In this document: positions 455 through 19,329 of the stretch, piece by piece | Layout of the letters: the number at the start of each line of letters is the position of its first letter | Position numbering within the stretch: position 1 is the stretch's first letter | Notes under the pieces: generated by a model | What the model was told of the DNA's origin: nothing | What the model saw: only the letters and a program-made list of their open reading frames with translations | The model's database searches: none | Made by a program: the position numbers and the translations under genes | Virus record (IMG/VR): IMGVR_UViG_3300023184_000541 | Location: 1-23,139 of that record | Strand: one strand, 5' to 3' | Origin: a virus | DNA: 23,139 nucleotides

Positions 455-584
455 ATCCGTAGGATATGAGAAATAGCGTTTAAATGCCATTTTAAGGCTT
501 ATACAGACACTTTAATTGTAAAGTAGTACTATGTATCCAAAATGACATAGAGTGTCTTAAATAGCCTCTAATTGCTTTTTATCT

Positions 585-604
585 ATGTTACCAATTTGGT
601 TACA
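585..604. repeat. 20-bp repeat copy 1 (near-palindrome)
   Basis: ATGTTACCAATTTGGTTACA occurs here and again, base for base, at 779-798. Within it GTTACCAA-T-TTGGTTAC (587-603) is an inverted repeat with a single mismatched pair (589/601), the form expected of a dimeric DNA-binding protein site. Two identical 20-mers 194 bases apart in a non-coding gap are unlikely by chance. An operator or a terminase-recognition site are the two obvious readings; both are inference. Confidence 0.7.
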
Positions 605-778
605 TTGTTATAAAGTAAAGGTAAAACTTCTACCTATTTATATTTATTTACATACAATTCGTAGCAAATACTACTTATTATATGTTACAAGATATAACAA
701 AATTACCCCTTACTATGTCACATATTTATATAAATTAGTGACATTATTATGAATGAATATTCAGAAAAATTCATGCAG

Positions 779-798
779 ATGTTACCAATTTGGTTACA
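779..798. repeat. 20-bp repeat copy 2 (near-palindrome)
   Basis: This is the second exact copy of the 20-mer at 585-604, in the same orientation. It lies about 170 bases before the large terminase start and just upstream of the tandem hairpins. The flanking bases of the two copies differ, so the conserved unit really is the 20-mer and not part of a longer duplication. Confidence 0.7.
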
Positions 799-819
799 AA
801 AGTTCGCTAATAGTAAACT

Positions 820-895
820 TATCAATCACAAAAGTTGCTTTATTAGACAACTTTGAGCCGTATATGATTGATAATCGGCTCACTAATGATTGATA
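820..895. repeat. Three copies of TGATTGATA, one inverted
   Basis: TGATTGATA is at 865-873 and 887-895 on the + strand, and its reverse complement TATCAATCA is at 820-828. Three copies of a 9-mer within 76 bases suggest an iterated protein-binding site. The middle copy sits in the loop of the 854-882 hairpin. The function is not known. Confidence 0.55.
831..882 (+). other. Two tandem hairpins before large terminase
   Basis: AAAGTTG (831-837) pairs with CAACTTT (848-854) across a 10-base loop. TGAGCCG (854-860) pairs with CGGCTCA (876-882) across a 15-base loop. Both stems are perfect 7-bp pairings and abut at base 854. The second is GC-rich in very AT-rich surroundings. No T-run follows either stem, so they do not look like ordinary intrinsic terminators. 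They may be part of a packaging site or a structured leader. Confidence 0.5.
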
Positions 896-924
896 CCCCT
901 ACCTTCCTATAAAACCAAAAGGTT

Positions 925-932
925 TAGCTTTG
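925..932 (+). promoter_or_regulatory. Possible Bacteroidota -7 element upstream of large terminase
   Basis: TAGCTTTG matches the TAnnTTTG -7 consensus and ends 33 bases before the terminase ATG at 966. No TTG is present at the usual distance upstream (about 17-23 bases), so only half of a promoter is visible. It would give a leader of roughly 25-30 bases. Confidence 0.35.
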
Positions 933-965
933 TCTTGAGCAAACCAAAAATTTTAATTTATTTCT

Positions 966-14502: not shown

Positions 14503-17500
14503 ATGAGTCAACAATTACAGATAACAGGTGGTGCGAAAGTAAGGTCATTAGAGGGAGTTATAACAGGAACAAGTGGTGTTTTATCAAGTGTTCCTTTAGG
14601 TGCTGCTAATGGGGTAGCTACGTTGGATTCAGGGGGTAAAGTGCCTGTATCTCAATTACCTGCTTCGGTTGTAACTTATTTAGGTACTTGGAATGCTGCG
14701 ACTAATACTCCTACTTTAGTGAACGGAACTGGAGATGCTGGTGATTTATATATTTGTAATGTTGCAGGTACAGTTAACTTTGGTGCTGGTCCTATTACTT
14801 TTGCGGTAGGGGATTGGGTATTATACGGAAGTGGAACTTGGCAGAAATCTAATGGACAAAATGGTACAGTTACTTCGGTAGCTGCATCAATTACAGGAAA
14901 TTCATTAGGTATAACAGGTTCTCCAATTACAACCGCTGGAACTTTAGCTTTTGCTTTTGCAGGAACTAATTTACAATATGTAAATGGAGCAGGTAATTTG
15001 ACCACATTTCCGACTTTATTGTCAAGTGTGGGTTTATCTATGCCAAGTGCTTTTAGTGTCTCTAATAGCCCTTTAACGAGCAATGGAACGATTGCAGTAA
15101 CAGGAGCAGGTTATCCATCTCAGTATATTAGAGGAGATGGTACTTTAGCGGATTTCCCTACAAGTGGTGGTGGCGGTTCTTCGGTTTCGTATTATCTTAA
15201 CGGAGGAACAAGTCAAGGCACTATTGGTGGTGTTAATTATTACCAAATGAGTAAAACTGCGGTAACTTCATCAGGAGTAGATTTTGCTAAATCAGGTGAT
15301 GGTTTAATAGTATCTTTTTTAACGGATGCTGGAGACCCTGCACAATTAAACATTCCTGCTGGTAATTGGAACTACGAGATTTATGCTTCAATGAGTTCTA
15401 ATGGCGGAACTCCACAGATATACGCAGAACTTTATGTATATAATGGGACTACTTTTACTTTGATTAGTACAAGTAGCAATGAAATTTTATACGATGGTGT
15501 CAATTTGAATTTGTACACTTTTGCGATGACAGTTCCAGCTACAACTTTGACTATAACGGATAGATTGGCTATTAAGTTATATTCTACAAATAGTGGTGGA
15601 AAGACTACAACAGTACATACACAAGATTCTCATTTGTGTCAAATTATAACAACTTTTAGTACAGGAATTACTGCGTTAAATGGTTTGACTGCTCAAGTGC
15701 AATACTTTGCAACAGGAACAAGTGGGAGTGATTTTAATATTTCTAGTTCTACTGCTACGCATACTTTTAACTTACCTACGGCATCTGCTACAAATAGAGG
15801 TGCATTATCAAGTGCTGATTGGACAACATTCAATAGCAAAGTTGGTGGTAGTGGTTCAGATGGCAGAGTCGCATTTTGGAATGGTGCAAGTAGTTTAAGT
15901 AGTAATGCTAATTTATATTGGGATAACTCAACATCAAGGCTAGGAATAGGCACTAATACCCCTAATGCAAGTTTAGGAATATTAAACTCTAGTTCAACAG
16001 GATTACAAATAAGAACTTCAGATACATCAAATCAATATCAAGCGAATATCTATTGGGATGCTTCTTATGGTATGGTTTATGGTTATTATAGAACAGGAGC
16101 TTCTACTACTGCTCACAATTTAACTTTTTACAATGCTTTAGGTGGTTTTTTATCAGTACCAGAAAGCAGCAATAATAACATAGGTTTTAATACTTTAAAT
16201 CCACAAGGTTCAAGTGCTACTACTGTTTATGACTTTACTTCAATAAGCACAAGCGTAGAATTAAGATTGCATAATCCTACAACAGGATATACTTCAACAG
16301 ATGGTTCTTATATAAAAGTAACTCCAACTGCTTTAGTAATAGCTAATGTGGAAACTGCTAGTCAAATATTAATCAACAATGGTGGAAGTGGTGTTGTTAC
16401 TATTGATGGAACAAATAATGTGGCAATAGGAAATATTGGAGTGATTCCTATGACACAACAATTAACTGTTGTTGGTTCAATTCAAGCCTATGGGGGTTCT
16501 ATTTATCAGACTGTTACATCTAGTATGTTAAAGGCTAATTCATCAGGACAAATCATTGCTGCGGTTGGCGGAACAGACTATGAATATCCTTTGACTTTTT
16601 CTAGTCCTTTAGTAAGAACTACAAATACTATTTCAATTCCTGCGGCAACAACAAGTGTTAATGGTTATTTGACTTCAACTGATTGGAATACTTTTAACAA
16701 TAAGGGAAGCGGAACTGTTACTTCGGTAACAGGAACTGCTCCAGTTGTTTCTAGCGGTGGTACAACTCCTGCAATATCAATGGCGGCTGCTACAACATCG
16801 GTTAGCGGTTATTTAACGTCAACTGATTGGAATACTTTTAACGGAAAGTTTACTTTGCCTTCGTTGACAAGTGGTTCAATATTATTTAGTAATGGTTCTA
16901 CTATTGCTCAAAATAATAACAGATTATATTGGGATAATACCAATATGAGATTAGGTATAGGTACACAATCGGTTTCTCAATATGTAACGTATATAGCTGC
17001 AAATGTGGGAGAAAATGCAAATGCTTGGCTAGGTATTGAAAATAAGAATACAACAGGTTCTACTGCGGTAAGATTATTGTTAAATGGTAGTACAACAAGT
17101 GGATTTCAGTATGTGCAATCTACAAACCTTACTCAGATTTATGCAAACGCAGGAGATATACTTTTATCTAATGGAAGTAGTTTAGGACTGAAAATAGCAA
17201 ATACAACAGGTGCTGCAACATTTGATTCAAGTGCAACTGCTACATCTTTTGTTAAGACAGGGGGAACATCAAGTCAATTCTTAAAGGCTGATGGTTCAGT
17301 AGATTCTACTGCTTATGGAACTATAACTTCTGTAACTGCTACTGCTCCTGTGGTTTCAAGTGGCGGAACAACTCCTGTTATATCAATGGCTGCTGCAAGT
17401 GCTTCAGTTGCAGGATATGTAACAACAGGAACTCAAACAATAGCAGGTGCTAAGACATTTAGTTCAGCAGCTATATTTTCTAGTACAATTAATTCAGTCG

Positions 17501-19329
17501 GAAGTATTGTTGCAAGTGGAACTGGAAATGTTACATTAGCAGCATATTCAAGTGATAATTTCCCATTATTTCAATTAGTAGATAGTAGAGTTGGGGGTAA
17601 AAATTGGAATATAGAAAATGGTAGAACAAGTGCAGGTTTATTAGAATTATATTCAAGCACAGTAGGAACTGTTGTTACTATAACACAAGCTGGTGCAGGA
17701 ACTTTTAGTTCAACTTTACAAGCTACAAAGATTGGTATTGGTGGAGCACCTTCTGCTTTTATATTAGATGTAACAGGTACTGCAAAAGTAAGCGGAGTAT
17801 TAACATTAGGTGGTGGTACAGGTGGATTAAACTTTACAAGTTCAACTTCAATTACAAATACAGGAGCAAGTGGGTATATTTCAATCTATGCAAATGGTGG
17901 TGGTTTATTTTTAGGTGGTTCTGCTGCAACTACTAATGTAACAATAGCTTCAGGAGGTTTAACCACATTTACTAATGGTATTGGAGTTAATGGTTATAAT
18001 GCGAGTATAAATGCTGCTGCATTGTTTAGTGGTTCAGTTGGAATTAATAATATAACTCCTTCTTATTCATTAGATGTTACAGGTACAGGAAGGTTTAGTG
18101 ATACATTATATTCTACAAAAACAAGTGGAAGAAGTTTTGGTAATGATTCATACGGAACAAACTTTGGATGGATTGCAATGTATGGAACAACACAGGGTAT
18201 TCAATTAGGTTTTGAAGGTACAACAGGTGGTCAATTAATTACTGGAGCAGGGGCAAACTATGGTATTTTAGTTAGTAAAGCAGGATTGGCAATTAGTGCT
18301 AATAATGGGGTAACAAATCATTTAAACATAGCATCCACAGGAGCAGCTACATTCTCAGGTCCTACAGTAACAATAGGAAGTGCAGTAGCAGCTACTAATG
18401 TTAAACTACTTTTAAATGGTGTAGCTAGTAAAGCAGCAGGTATTGAATTTCAGCAAAATGGAACTGCACAATGGTATATTGGTAATGGTATAGCATCAGA
18501 GGATAATAACTTTGAATTGTATAATAGTAATGGTACTATGGCAATGAAAATTATTAAATCTACTAATGCTATTAATTTTATAGGTAATGTAGGTATAGGT
18601 ACTGCTTTGCCAACAAGATTATTAGATGTTTCAAATACATCAGGAGATTCAAGCATAGCAATAACATCTGCTGATACAACAGGTCAATCCTCGTTATTCT
18701 TTGCAAAAACAAGTGATACGAATATTGGTGGTGTTTTATATACGCACTCTGATAATGTAATGGCATTCAGAGTTAATGATGCTACAAGAATGAGTATTAC
18801 AAGTGGTGGCAATGTATTAATAGGAACTACTACTCAAACTTATTCAACAAAATTAGAAGTAGTAAGTGGTGGAGATGCCATATCTTCTAAATGTGATAGT
18901 GGTGGAACTGCTATTTTATGTAATCCAGCTACAACTGGTTCAACATCAGCTTATTTTAAAGTAGGTTCAACAAATGCAGGCTATATTGGACATCCAACAT
19001 CATCTACTACATCATATAATACATCACCTTCTGATGAAAGATTAAAGTATAACATTGAAATATGGAATGAGAATGTTTTAGAATTATTTAAAAATATTAA
19101 TCCTAAAACTTATTCTCACATTTCTGACAATGATGAATCCATAAGATATAAAGGATTTATAGCACAACAAATGATTGATAAATTTCCAGAGGCATATCCT
19201 ATTGATAGACAAGGTTTTTATAATTATAATCCTTCGGCTATGGTAGTATATTTAATGAAAGCAATACAAGAGCAACAAGCGCAAATAGAAGAACTTAAAC
19301 AACAAGTACAATTACTTTTAAATAAATAA
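14503..19329 (+). CDS. Tail fibre / receptor-binding protein with C-terminal S74 chaperone
   Basis: This is the largest gene of the window, 1608 residues, the likely host-receptor binder. The N-terminus (QQLQITGGAKVRS, LDSGGKVPVSQLPASVVTYLGTWNA) is a typical fibre attachment start. The middle is a string of repeated modules: GTVTSV...PVVSSGGTTPxISMAAA, SVxGYLTSTDWNTFN, and several VGIGTxxPxxxLDVTG units (for example near bases 15938, 16952, 17731, 18039, 18589). The last 99 residues are an intramolecular chaperone of peptidase family S74: SPSDERLKYNI carries the Ser-Lys pair S1510 and K1515 used for self-cleavage, and the end is a coiled coil (AIQEQQAQIEELKQQVQLL) that drives trimer formation. 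The chaperone would be released after the trimer folds. Confidence 0.92.
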   Translation: MSQQLQITGGAKVRSLEGVITGTSGVLSSVPLGAANGVATLDSGGKVPVSQLPASVVTYLGTWNAATNTPTLVNGTGDAGDLYICNVAGTVNFGAGPITFAVGDWVLYGSGTWQKSNGQNGTVTSVAASITGNSLGITGSPITTAGTLAFAFAGTNLQYVNGAGNLTTFPTLLSSVGLSMPSAFSVSNSPLTSNGTIAVTGAGYPSQYIRGDGTLADFPTSGGGGSSVSYYLNGGTSQGTIGGVNYYQMSKTAVTSSGVDFAKSGDGLIVSFLTDAGDPAQLNIPAGNWNYEIYASMSSNGGTPQIYAELYVYNGTTFTLISTSSNEILYDGVNLNLYTFAMTVPATTLTITDRLAIKLYSTNSGGKTTTVHTQDSHLCQIITTFSTGITALNGLTAQVQYFATGTSGSDFNISSSTATHTFNLPTASATNRGALSSADWTTFNSKVGGSGSDGRVAFWNGASSLSSNANLYWDNSTSRLGIGTNTPNASLGILNSSSTGLQIRTSDTSNQYQANIYWDASYGMVYGYYRTGASTTAHNLTFYNALGGFLSVPESSNNNIGFNTLNPQGSSATTVYDFTSISTSVELRLHNPTTGYTSTDGSYIKVTPTALVIANVETASQILINNGGSGVVTIDGTNNVAIGNIGVIPMTQQLTVVGSIQAYGGSIYQTVTSSMLKANSSGQIIAAVGGTDYEYPLTFSSPLVRTTNTISIPAATTSVNGYLTSTDWNTFNNKGSGTVTSVTGTAPVVSSGGTTPAISMAAATTSVSGYLTSTDWNTFNGKFTLPSLTSGSILFSNGSTIAQNNNRLYWDNTNMRLGIGTQSVSQYVTYIAANVGENANAWLGIENKNTTGSTAVRLLLNGSTTSGFQYVQSTNLTQIYANAGDILLSNGSSLGLKIANTTGAATFDSSATATSFVKTGGTSSQFLKADGSVDSTAYGTITSVTATAPVVSSGGTTPVISMAAASASVAGYVTTGTQTIAGAKTFSSAAIFSSTINSVGSIVASGTGNVTLAAYSSDNFPLFQLVDSRVGGKNWNIENGRTSAGLLELYSSTVGTVVTITQAGAGTFSSTLQATKIGIGGAPSAFILDVTGTAKVSGVLTLGGGTGGLNFTSSTSITNTGASGYISIYANGGGLFLGGSAATTNVTIASGGLTTFTNGIGVNGYNASINAAALFSGSVGINNITPSYSLDVTGTGRFSDTLYSTKTSGRSFGNDSYGTNFGWIAMYGTTQGIQLGFEGTTGGQLITGAGANYGILVSKAGLAISANNGVTNHLNIASTGAATFSGPTVTIGSAVAATNVKLLLNGVASKAAGIEFQQNGTAQWYIGNGIASEDNNFELYNSNGTMAMKIIKSTNAINFIGNVGIGTALPTRLLDVSNTSGDSSIAITSADTTGQSSLFFAKTSDTNIGGVLYTHSDNVMAFRVNDATRMSITSGGNVLIGTTTQTYSTKLEVVSGGDAISSKCDSGGTAILCNPATTGSTSAYFKVGSTNAGYIGHPTSSTTSYNTSPSDERLKYNIEIWNENVLELFKNINPKTYSHISDNDESIRYKGFIAQQMIDKFPEAYPIDRQGFYNYNPSAMVVYLMKAIQEQQAQIEELKQQVQLLLNK
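16641..16842 (+). repeat. 144-base-spaced direct repeats inside the fibre gene
   Basis: Segments 16641-16698 and 16785-16842 are imperfect copies at a 144-base (48-codon) offset. Each ends with TCAACTGATTGGAATACTTT and the next four bases AAC preceded by T, giving 24 identical bases at 16675-16698 and 16819-16842. They encode the GYLTSTDWNTFN unit. A looser third version is at about 15800-15840 (ALSSADWTTFNSK). Segments 16711-16790 and 17317-17396 form a second repeated pair, at a 202-codon offset. Such repeats are where fibres gain or lose modules by recombination. Confidence 0.7.

Follow-up and report, generated by a model that had tools for sequence, protein, structure and literature searches.

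Intergenic palindrome arrays in a freshwater phage and other viruses resemble operators of bacterial defence regulators and may serve as decoys

The stretch of DNA analyzed here (the window) is a linear IMG/VR virus record of 23,139 bp from a freshwater phage, and its 5' end falls within terS, the gene for the terminase small subunit. The gap between terS and terL spans positions 455-965 (511 bp) and contains a series of short palindromic modules, designated here by letter. The genes and features of this part of the window are as follows.

2-454, + strand: terS, truncated at the 5' end by the contig end; terminase small subunit, PHROG 309 (E=6.6e-5)
476-583, + strand: conserved left flank of the gap, GACACTTT..GTAGTACTAT.TATCCAAAA..AGTGTCTTAAAT, kept in nearly all relatives
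585-604, no strand: module A copy 1, exact 20-mer; predicted HigA (PD-Lambda-2) operator
683-699, no strand: palindrome TGTTACAAGATATAACA, variants of which occur in other arrays
715-744, no strand: module D, TGTCAC-N16-GTGACA; AbiEi (DUF6088-type) operator class by its best alignment, to host AbiEi operators TGTCAC-N16/17-GTGACA
750-777, no strand: module C variant, TGAATGAATATTCAGAAAAATTCATGCA, left arm degenerate; AbiEi type-1 operator class by its best alignment, to the AbiE operator of L408
779-798, no strand: module A copy 2, second exact 20-mer; predicted HigA operator
800-820, no strand: module N, AAGTTCGCTAATAGTAAACTT; recurs in arrays
831-854, no strand: module N copy 2, AAAGTTGCTTTATTAGACAACTTT; recurs in arrays
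854-882, no strand: module B, TGAGCCG-N15-CGGCTCA; predicted SoFic operator, found in tandem at three Bacteroidota SoFic promoters
893-965, + strand: right flank before terL, conserved in relatives, with a possible -7 box TAGCTTTG at 925-932
966-2102, + strand: terL; PHROG 2 (E=2.5e-45), Pfam Terminase_3 (E=8.8e-28)

Elsewhere in the window, positions 14503-19329 hold a very long tail-fibre-like ORF, the C terminus of which (SDERLKYNIE..) resembles an intramolecular chaperone domain.

The first-pass annotation had singled out a 20-mer, ATGTTACCAATTTGGTTACA, as exactly duplicated at 585-604 and 779-798 and had described its core as nearly palindromic. Both observations hold, the core TGTTACCAATTTGGTTACA being a palindrome with a single mismatched pair. 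Allowing up to three mismatches, ATGTTACCAATTTGGTTACA was found 3 times, compared with a mean of 0.02 in dinucleotide-preserving shuffles of the whole window. Strong palindromes number 6 in the 511-bp gap (1.8 in shuffles), and their density across the gaps of relatives is 4.4 per 500 bp (1.4 in shuffles). A scan of the gap for sigma-70 promoters and terminators returned none. The sole forward-strand TAnnTTTG of the gap, TAGCTTTG at 925-932, fits the Bacteroidota -7 box; as it is conserved before terL in relatives, it is a possible terL promoter.

For relatives, we took the best 80 of more than 300 TerL-related contigs, with TerL identities of 93 to 100%. Their terS-terL gaps measure 197 to approximately 1,360 bp, with one further gap of 2,151 bp that holds genes, so a length of 511 bp, previously regarded as unusual, is normal for this phage group. 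Across these approximately 80 near-identical phages, both flanks of the gap are retained and the palindromic modules between them are swapped; a 20-bp core of the left flank is present in 94 viral stretches. The exact duplication of module A is particular to the window phage, most relatives carrying one copy or none. In five of the longest gaps (L071, L073, L032, L021, and L055) there is an ORF of 158 to 164 aa with GIY-YIG-like (MUG113/T5orf172) and HTH domains, which may be a mobile gene aiding variation of the gap. The phage map is apparently circular, at approximately 34 to 37 kb, with early genes running leftward and late genes rightward. A search for DNA-similarity relatives among cultured phages and plasmids gave background only.

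The modules also occur outside this group. The core 19-mer of module A is present in 75 viral stretches, many of them without a related TerL, and there the site lies within arrays at other intergenic loci with similar neighbours. No homologue of the window TerL was detectable in 11 of 15 longer records sharing modules. Each of the long records examined (the window, G001 to G007, and seven others) has at most one multi-module array per genome, with a similar order of modules and nearly no overlap with ORFs, and several arrays are bordered by terminator-like hairpins. We count 102 distinct arrays, each combining two or more of the assigned module types, and 62 of them are outside the terminase gap; among 269 module copies, 264 lie outside ORFs. 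Because the loci were picked partly by modules A, F, and H and the left flank, this association is unbiased for the co-occurrence of modules B, C, D, and L.

This distribution bears on the earlier proposal that the gap is a pac or cos packaging site bound by TerS. Such a site would fit the position beside terS and terL and the repetition of the sites, but the same modules lie far from terminase genes in phages without a detectable homologue of the window TerL. Module A is also missing from many relatives whose TerL is 97 to 98% identical. Contig ends near terL are scattered (7, 50, 71, 86, 92, 150, 187, 287, and 484 bp, and further upstream), and G001 and G002 run unbroken through the gap. We therefore give a packaging site hardly any chance of being the explanation.

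A bacterial counterpart was found for module A. Among approximately 85,000 GTDB species genomes, 9 contain its exact 19-mer; six of these, from Bacteroidota, have it directly upstream of a higB-higA pair and next to a -7 box, TAtaTTTG, making it a promoter-proximal site. In the genomes that were searched again, the 19-mer is single at up to one mismatch. The HigB protein belongs to PF09907 (Pfam E=2.5e-30), and PADLOC assigns the higBA pair to PD-Lambda-2 (E=1e-37 and 1e-40). Other higBA promoters have GTTACC-N5-GGTAAC or, with more distant HigA proteins, GTTCCC-N5-GGGAAC just before the -7 box, and the plasmid higBA operons of Chryseobacterium and Empedobacter have the same site class. To judge from the family and from the position at the promoter, HigA would repress through its palindrome. 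The assignment of module A as the operator of a bacterial HigA antitoxin (higBA, PD-Lambda-2) is well supported by these sequence matches. The commonest distal HigA operator, TTGTTCCCAATAGTGGAAC, had 0 occurrences in IMG/VR. Across module A contexts, agreement is 96 to 100% within the site versus mostly 32 to 57% just outside, and the T-T mismatch of the stem is kept in 60 of 64 contexts. The 19-mer is also found in two Mesorhizobium genomes and one IMG/VR record (L173, L177, and L201), where the surroundings match one another and are not near higBA.

Modules C, D, and L lead to a second defence system. A composite array was searched against 300 genomes of Flavobacterium, the genus of L176 (Flavobacterium zepuense), and besides A, C, and L the matches were mostly AT-rich background. 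One matched site, TGCATGAATTTTTCCGTTTTTTTCATGCA, precedes the -7 box of a Flavobacterium AbiEi-AbiEii gene pair (PADLOC AbiEi 1e-78, AbiEii 3e-48). Sites of the TTGCATGATTTTT..TTGCAA type also occur in the promoters of homologous AbiEi genes from Bradyrhizobium, Protochlamydia, and Caulobacter; such a site was not clear at the examined AbiEi genes of Agrobacterium, Legionella, and Methylomonas, and an underpowered search of 238 Bacteroidota genomes with the module H and C patterns gave 0 matches. Another match of the composite array lies upstream of an AbiEi gene of a second type (PADLOC 7.5e-71; DUF6088 2.9e-77). Nearly all of 30 Flavobacterium AbiEi (DUF6088) genes have a palindrome of 29 to 31 bp in front, formed by TGTCAC, TGTAAC, TGTCGC, or TGTCCC and its mirror, and the phage copies read TGTCAC-N16-GTGACA (module D) and TGTAAC..GTTACA. 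The spacer is mostly 16 bp in phage module D versus mostly 17 bp at host AbiEi genes, one host site (L443) having 16. AbiEi represses its own promoter via inverted repeats (PMC3985639, PMC7319586). Module C as the predicted AbiEi operator of AbiE, with a degenerate left arm in the window copy, and modules D and L as predicted operators of the second AbiEi type (DUF6088) are both well-supported assignments.

For module B, two Flavobacterium genomes among the matches listed have DUF4172-Fic genes with tandem copies of TGAGCCG-N15-CGGCTCA surrounding the -7 box; two more exact or near-exact B sites in Flavobacterium among these matches are terminator-like hairpins and not promoters. Two Flavobacterium genomes and one Chryseobacterium plasmid have SoFic genes where tandem TGAGCC-N17-GGCTCA sites flank TATATTTG. 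The two Flavobacterium Fic genes are SoFic by PADLOC (1.6e-51 and 2.3e-52), and Pfam finds DUF4172 and Fic in their products. SoFic presumably binds DNA via its C-terminal domain, judging from the family and the promoter position. There is good support for module B as the predicted tandem operator of SoFic. Around module B in the phages, ATCAATCA/TGATTGAT switch jointly to ATCGCTCA/TGAGCGAT in some genomes, as if the arms were matched.

Modules E, F, G, H, I, K, N, and others fall outside the four operator types matched. Module G was found in 2 of 250 Flavobacterium genomes, both times in coding DNA, without operator context and less often than its reversed control, and a stricter pattern for module N had no match in 230 Flavobacterium genomes. 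Further palindromes recur among the viral sequences. TTACTCAATsGAsTGAGTAA (L283-L326) is present in 88 viral stretches, where it nearly always belongs to an array of this type, and no bacterial operator was found for it. TGTTCACGnnnnCGTGAACA (L333-L365) is shared by widely differing phages, GC-rich ones among them, and often has a further half-site (A/GTGAACA) approximately 10 bp downstream. In one virus record that is otherwise unrelated, an apparent XRE regulator gene is preceded by a palindrome resembling module A, GTTACCAATTTGGTAAC (L187 / G278:32,715).

With four module types matching operator DNA at bacterial promoters, it becomes improbable to a marked degree that the gap is instead a structured RNA or the leader of the terL mRNA, its palindromes acting as RNA hairpins. 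The gap does fold far more stably than its shuffles (z=-6.0), and some stems covary on both sides (ATCAATCA/TGATTGAT versus ATCGCTCA/TGAGCGAT), but any palindromic DNA folds well as RNA, and the module A stem retains its T-T mismatch. No Rfam family was matched, the lone chance-level match lying inside terL, and arrays are found in both orientations relative to genes.

The first-pass annotation had offered a repressor operator as the alternative to a packaging site. That suggestion appears right in kind, although the regulator is probably not the phage's own, since the 20-mer matches a bacterial HigA operator and its neighbours match AbiEi and SoFic operators. The phages do encode small HTH proteins, and some gaps contain the HTH/GIY-YIG gene, which could point to regulators of their own; however, HigA, HigB, either AbiEi type, and SoFic have no homologue in 2.87 Mb of phage loci, and these modules occur, without promoters, in phages of differing gene content. 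Binding by the phages' own regulators is accordingly a highly improbable account. Reversed control patterns gave 0 contexts in phage DNA, versus 67, 18, 80, 52, and 172 contexts for the operator patterns.

Phage and host copies differ in their surroundings. In bacteria, the sites adjoin the -7 box or the start codon of the defence gene. Phage sites have a -7 box at a distance of up to 30 bp in 8 of 58 contexts for module A, 0 of 82 for B, 0 of 38 for C, and 2 of 41 for D, versus 12 of 17 host sites at higBA and 24 of 25 at AbiEi. A functional defence operon was among the candidates considered and was rejected, nearly all phage sites being without a -7 box and the cognate genes being absent. 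The rarity of -7 boxes beside phage copies also counts against real operators that act in cis, as a sensor coupling transcription of the late gene terL to the toxin-antitoxin state of the host. In this phage group, the array does lie between terS and the possible terL promoter TAGCTTTG, where bound regulators could block transcription arriving from terS, but in other phages the genes next to the array are unrelated, its orientation varies, and terminator-like hairpins often enclose it; we consider a cis-acting sensor unlikely. It is also quite improbable that the modules are functionless operator relics of defence operons recombined through a hotspot. Their coming and going as blocks between fixed flanks, and the possibly mobile GIY-YIG/HTH gene in some gaps, would suit such an origin, but the module A operator is kept while its neighbouring sequence varies, no coding or promoter remnants were seen in the phage loci, and unrelated phages show the modules in a similar order.

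Our preferred reading, to which we assign a probability of roughly 60%, is that the gap is a non-coding array of decoy operators: host HigA, AbiEi, and SoFic would be bound in trans, and toxin-antitoxin and abortive-infection defence would thereby be disturbed. Sequence comparison gives good support to the operator identity of modules A, B, C, and D/L and shows their intergenic position, the absence of promoters and cognate genes, and their spread in unrelated phages; from these we infer binding within the infected cell, titration, and a gain for the phage. Each assigned module would copy the site by which a host defence regulator represses its own operon. After injection and replication, the array would offer many operator copies, and the regulators would be bound in trans. 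For SoFic, decoys could hold the effector itself because the presumed DNA-binding protein is the effector, and for HigBA they could hold the antitoxin or toxin-antitoxin complexes. For AbiE, titration of the antitoxin-repressor would lead to higher expression of the operon with its antitoxin. Overall, abortive infection would be weakened or delayed. A benefit to the phage is not self-evident because titrating an autorepressor should derepress the toxin besides the antitoxin, and the sequence does not settle which consequence would be the helpful one: an increase in antitoxin, or the retention on DNA of either the antitoxin or the effector.

Recombination adds and removes modules, presumably following the defences of the hosts met. 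The similar clusters in unrelated phages suggest that viruses trap bacterial defence regulators with plain non-coding DNA. By extension, Bacteroidota phages would share through recombination one intergenic library of decoy operators per genome, titrating several defence autorepressors or effectors simultaneously (HigBA/PD-Lambda-2, two AbiE types, SoFic, and others), a wider proposal that we hold at about even odds. If true, abortive infection would be disarmed in a new way, by a DNA-only element that bears operators from four kinds of defence system and escapes gene-based searches. The arrays would then be a readout of the defences that phages meet in nature, and each unmatched palindrome (E, F, G, H, I, K, N, and others) would be a lead to an undiscovered host defence regulator.

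To our knowledge, phage counter-defences are proteins or RNAs, and we know of no case of operator titration as a natural phage counter-defence; a search of the open-licence literature found no precedent for phages using decoy operators against regulators of toxin-antitoxin systems or of defence. In plasmid biology, multicopy operators titrate repressors, the surplus operators drawing an autorepressor off its promoter, and the window array may be likened to this in that its surplus operator copies would pull autorepressors off theirs. REP/BIME elements are likewise arrays of short extragenic palindromes, but they constitute one family in many copies, whereas a phage genome here has approximately one array, composed of many different palindromes. 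The autoregulatory operators of the hosts (higBA/PD-Lambda-2; AbiE [PMC3985639, PMC7319586]; SoFic) have palindromes, spacing classes, and half-sites in common with the phage sites, which differ in being without promoter or genes, in standing side by side in several kinds, and in lying in trans to the regulators. The pseudo-ToxI RNA repeats of Pectobacterium phage phiTE reportedly imitate, in non-coding form, a control element of a toxin-antitoxin system and disarm abortive infection; phiTE would mimic an RNA antitoxin of one system, whereas the window array would act as DNA and on several systems simultaneously.
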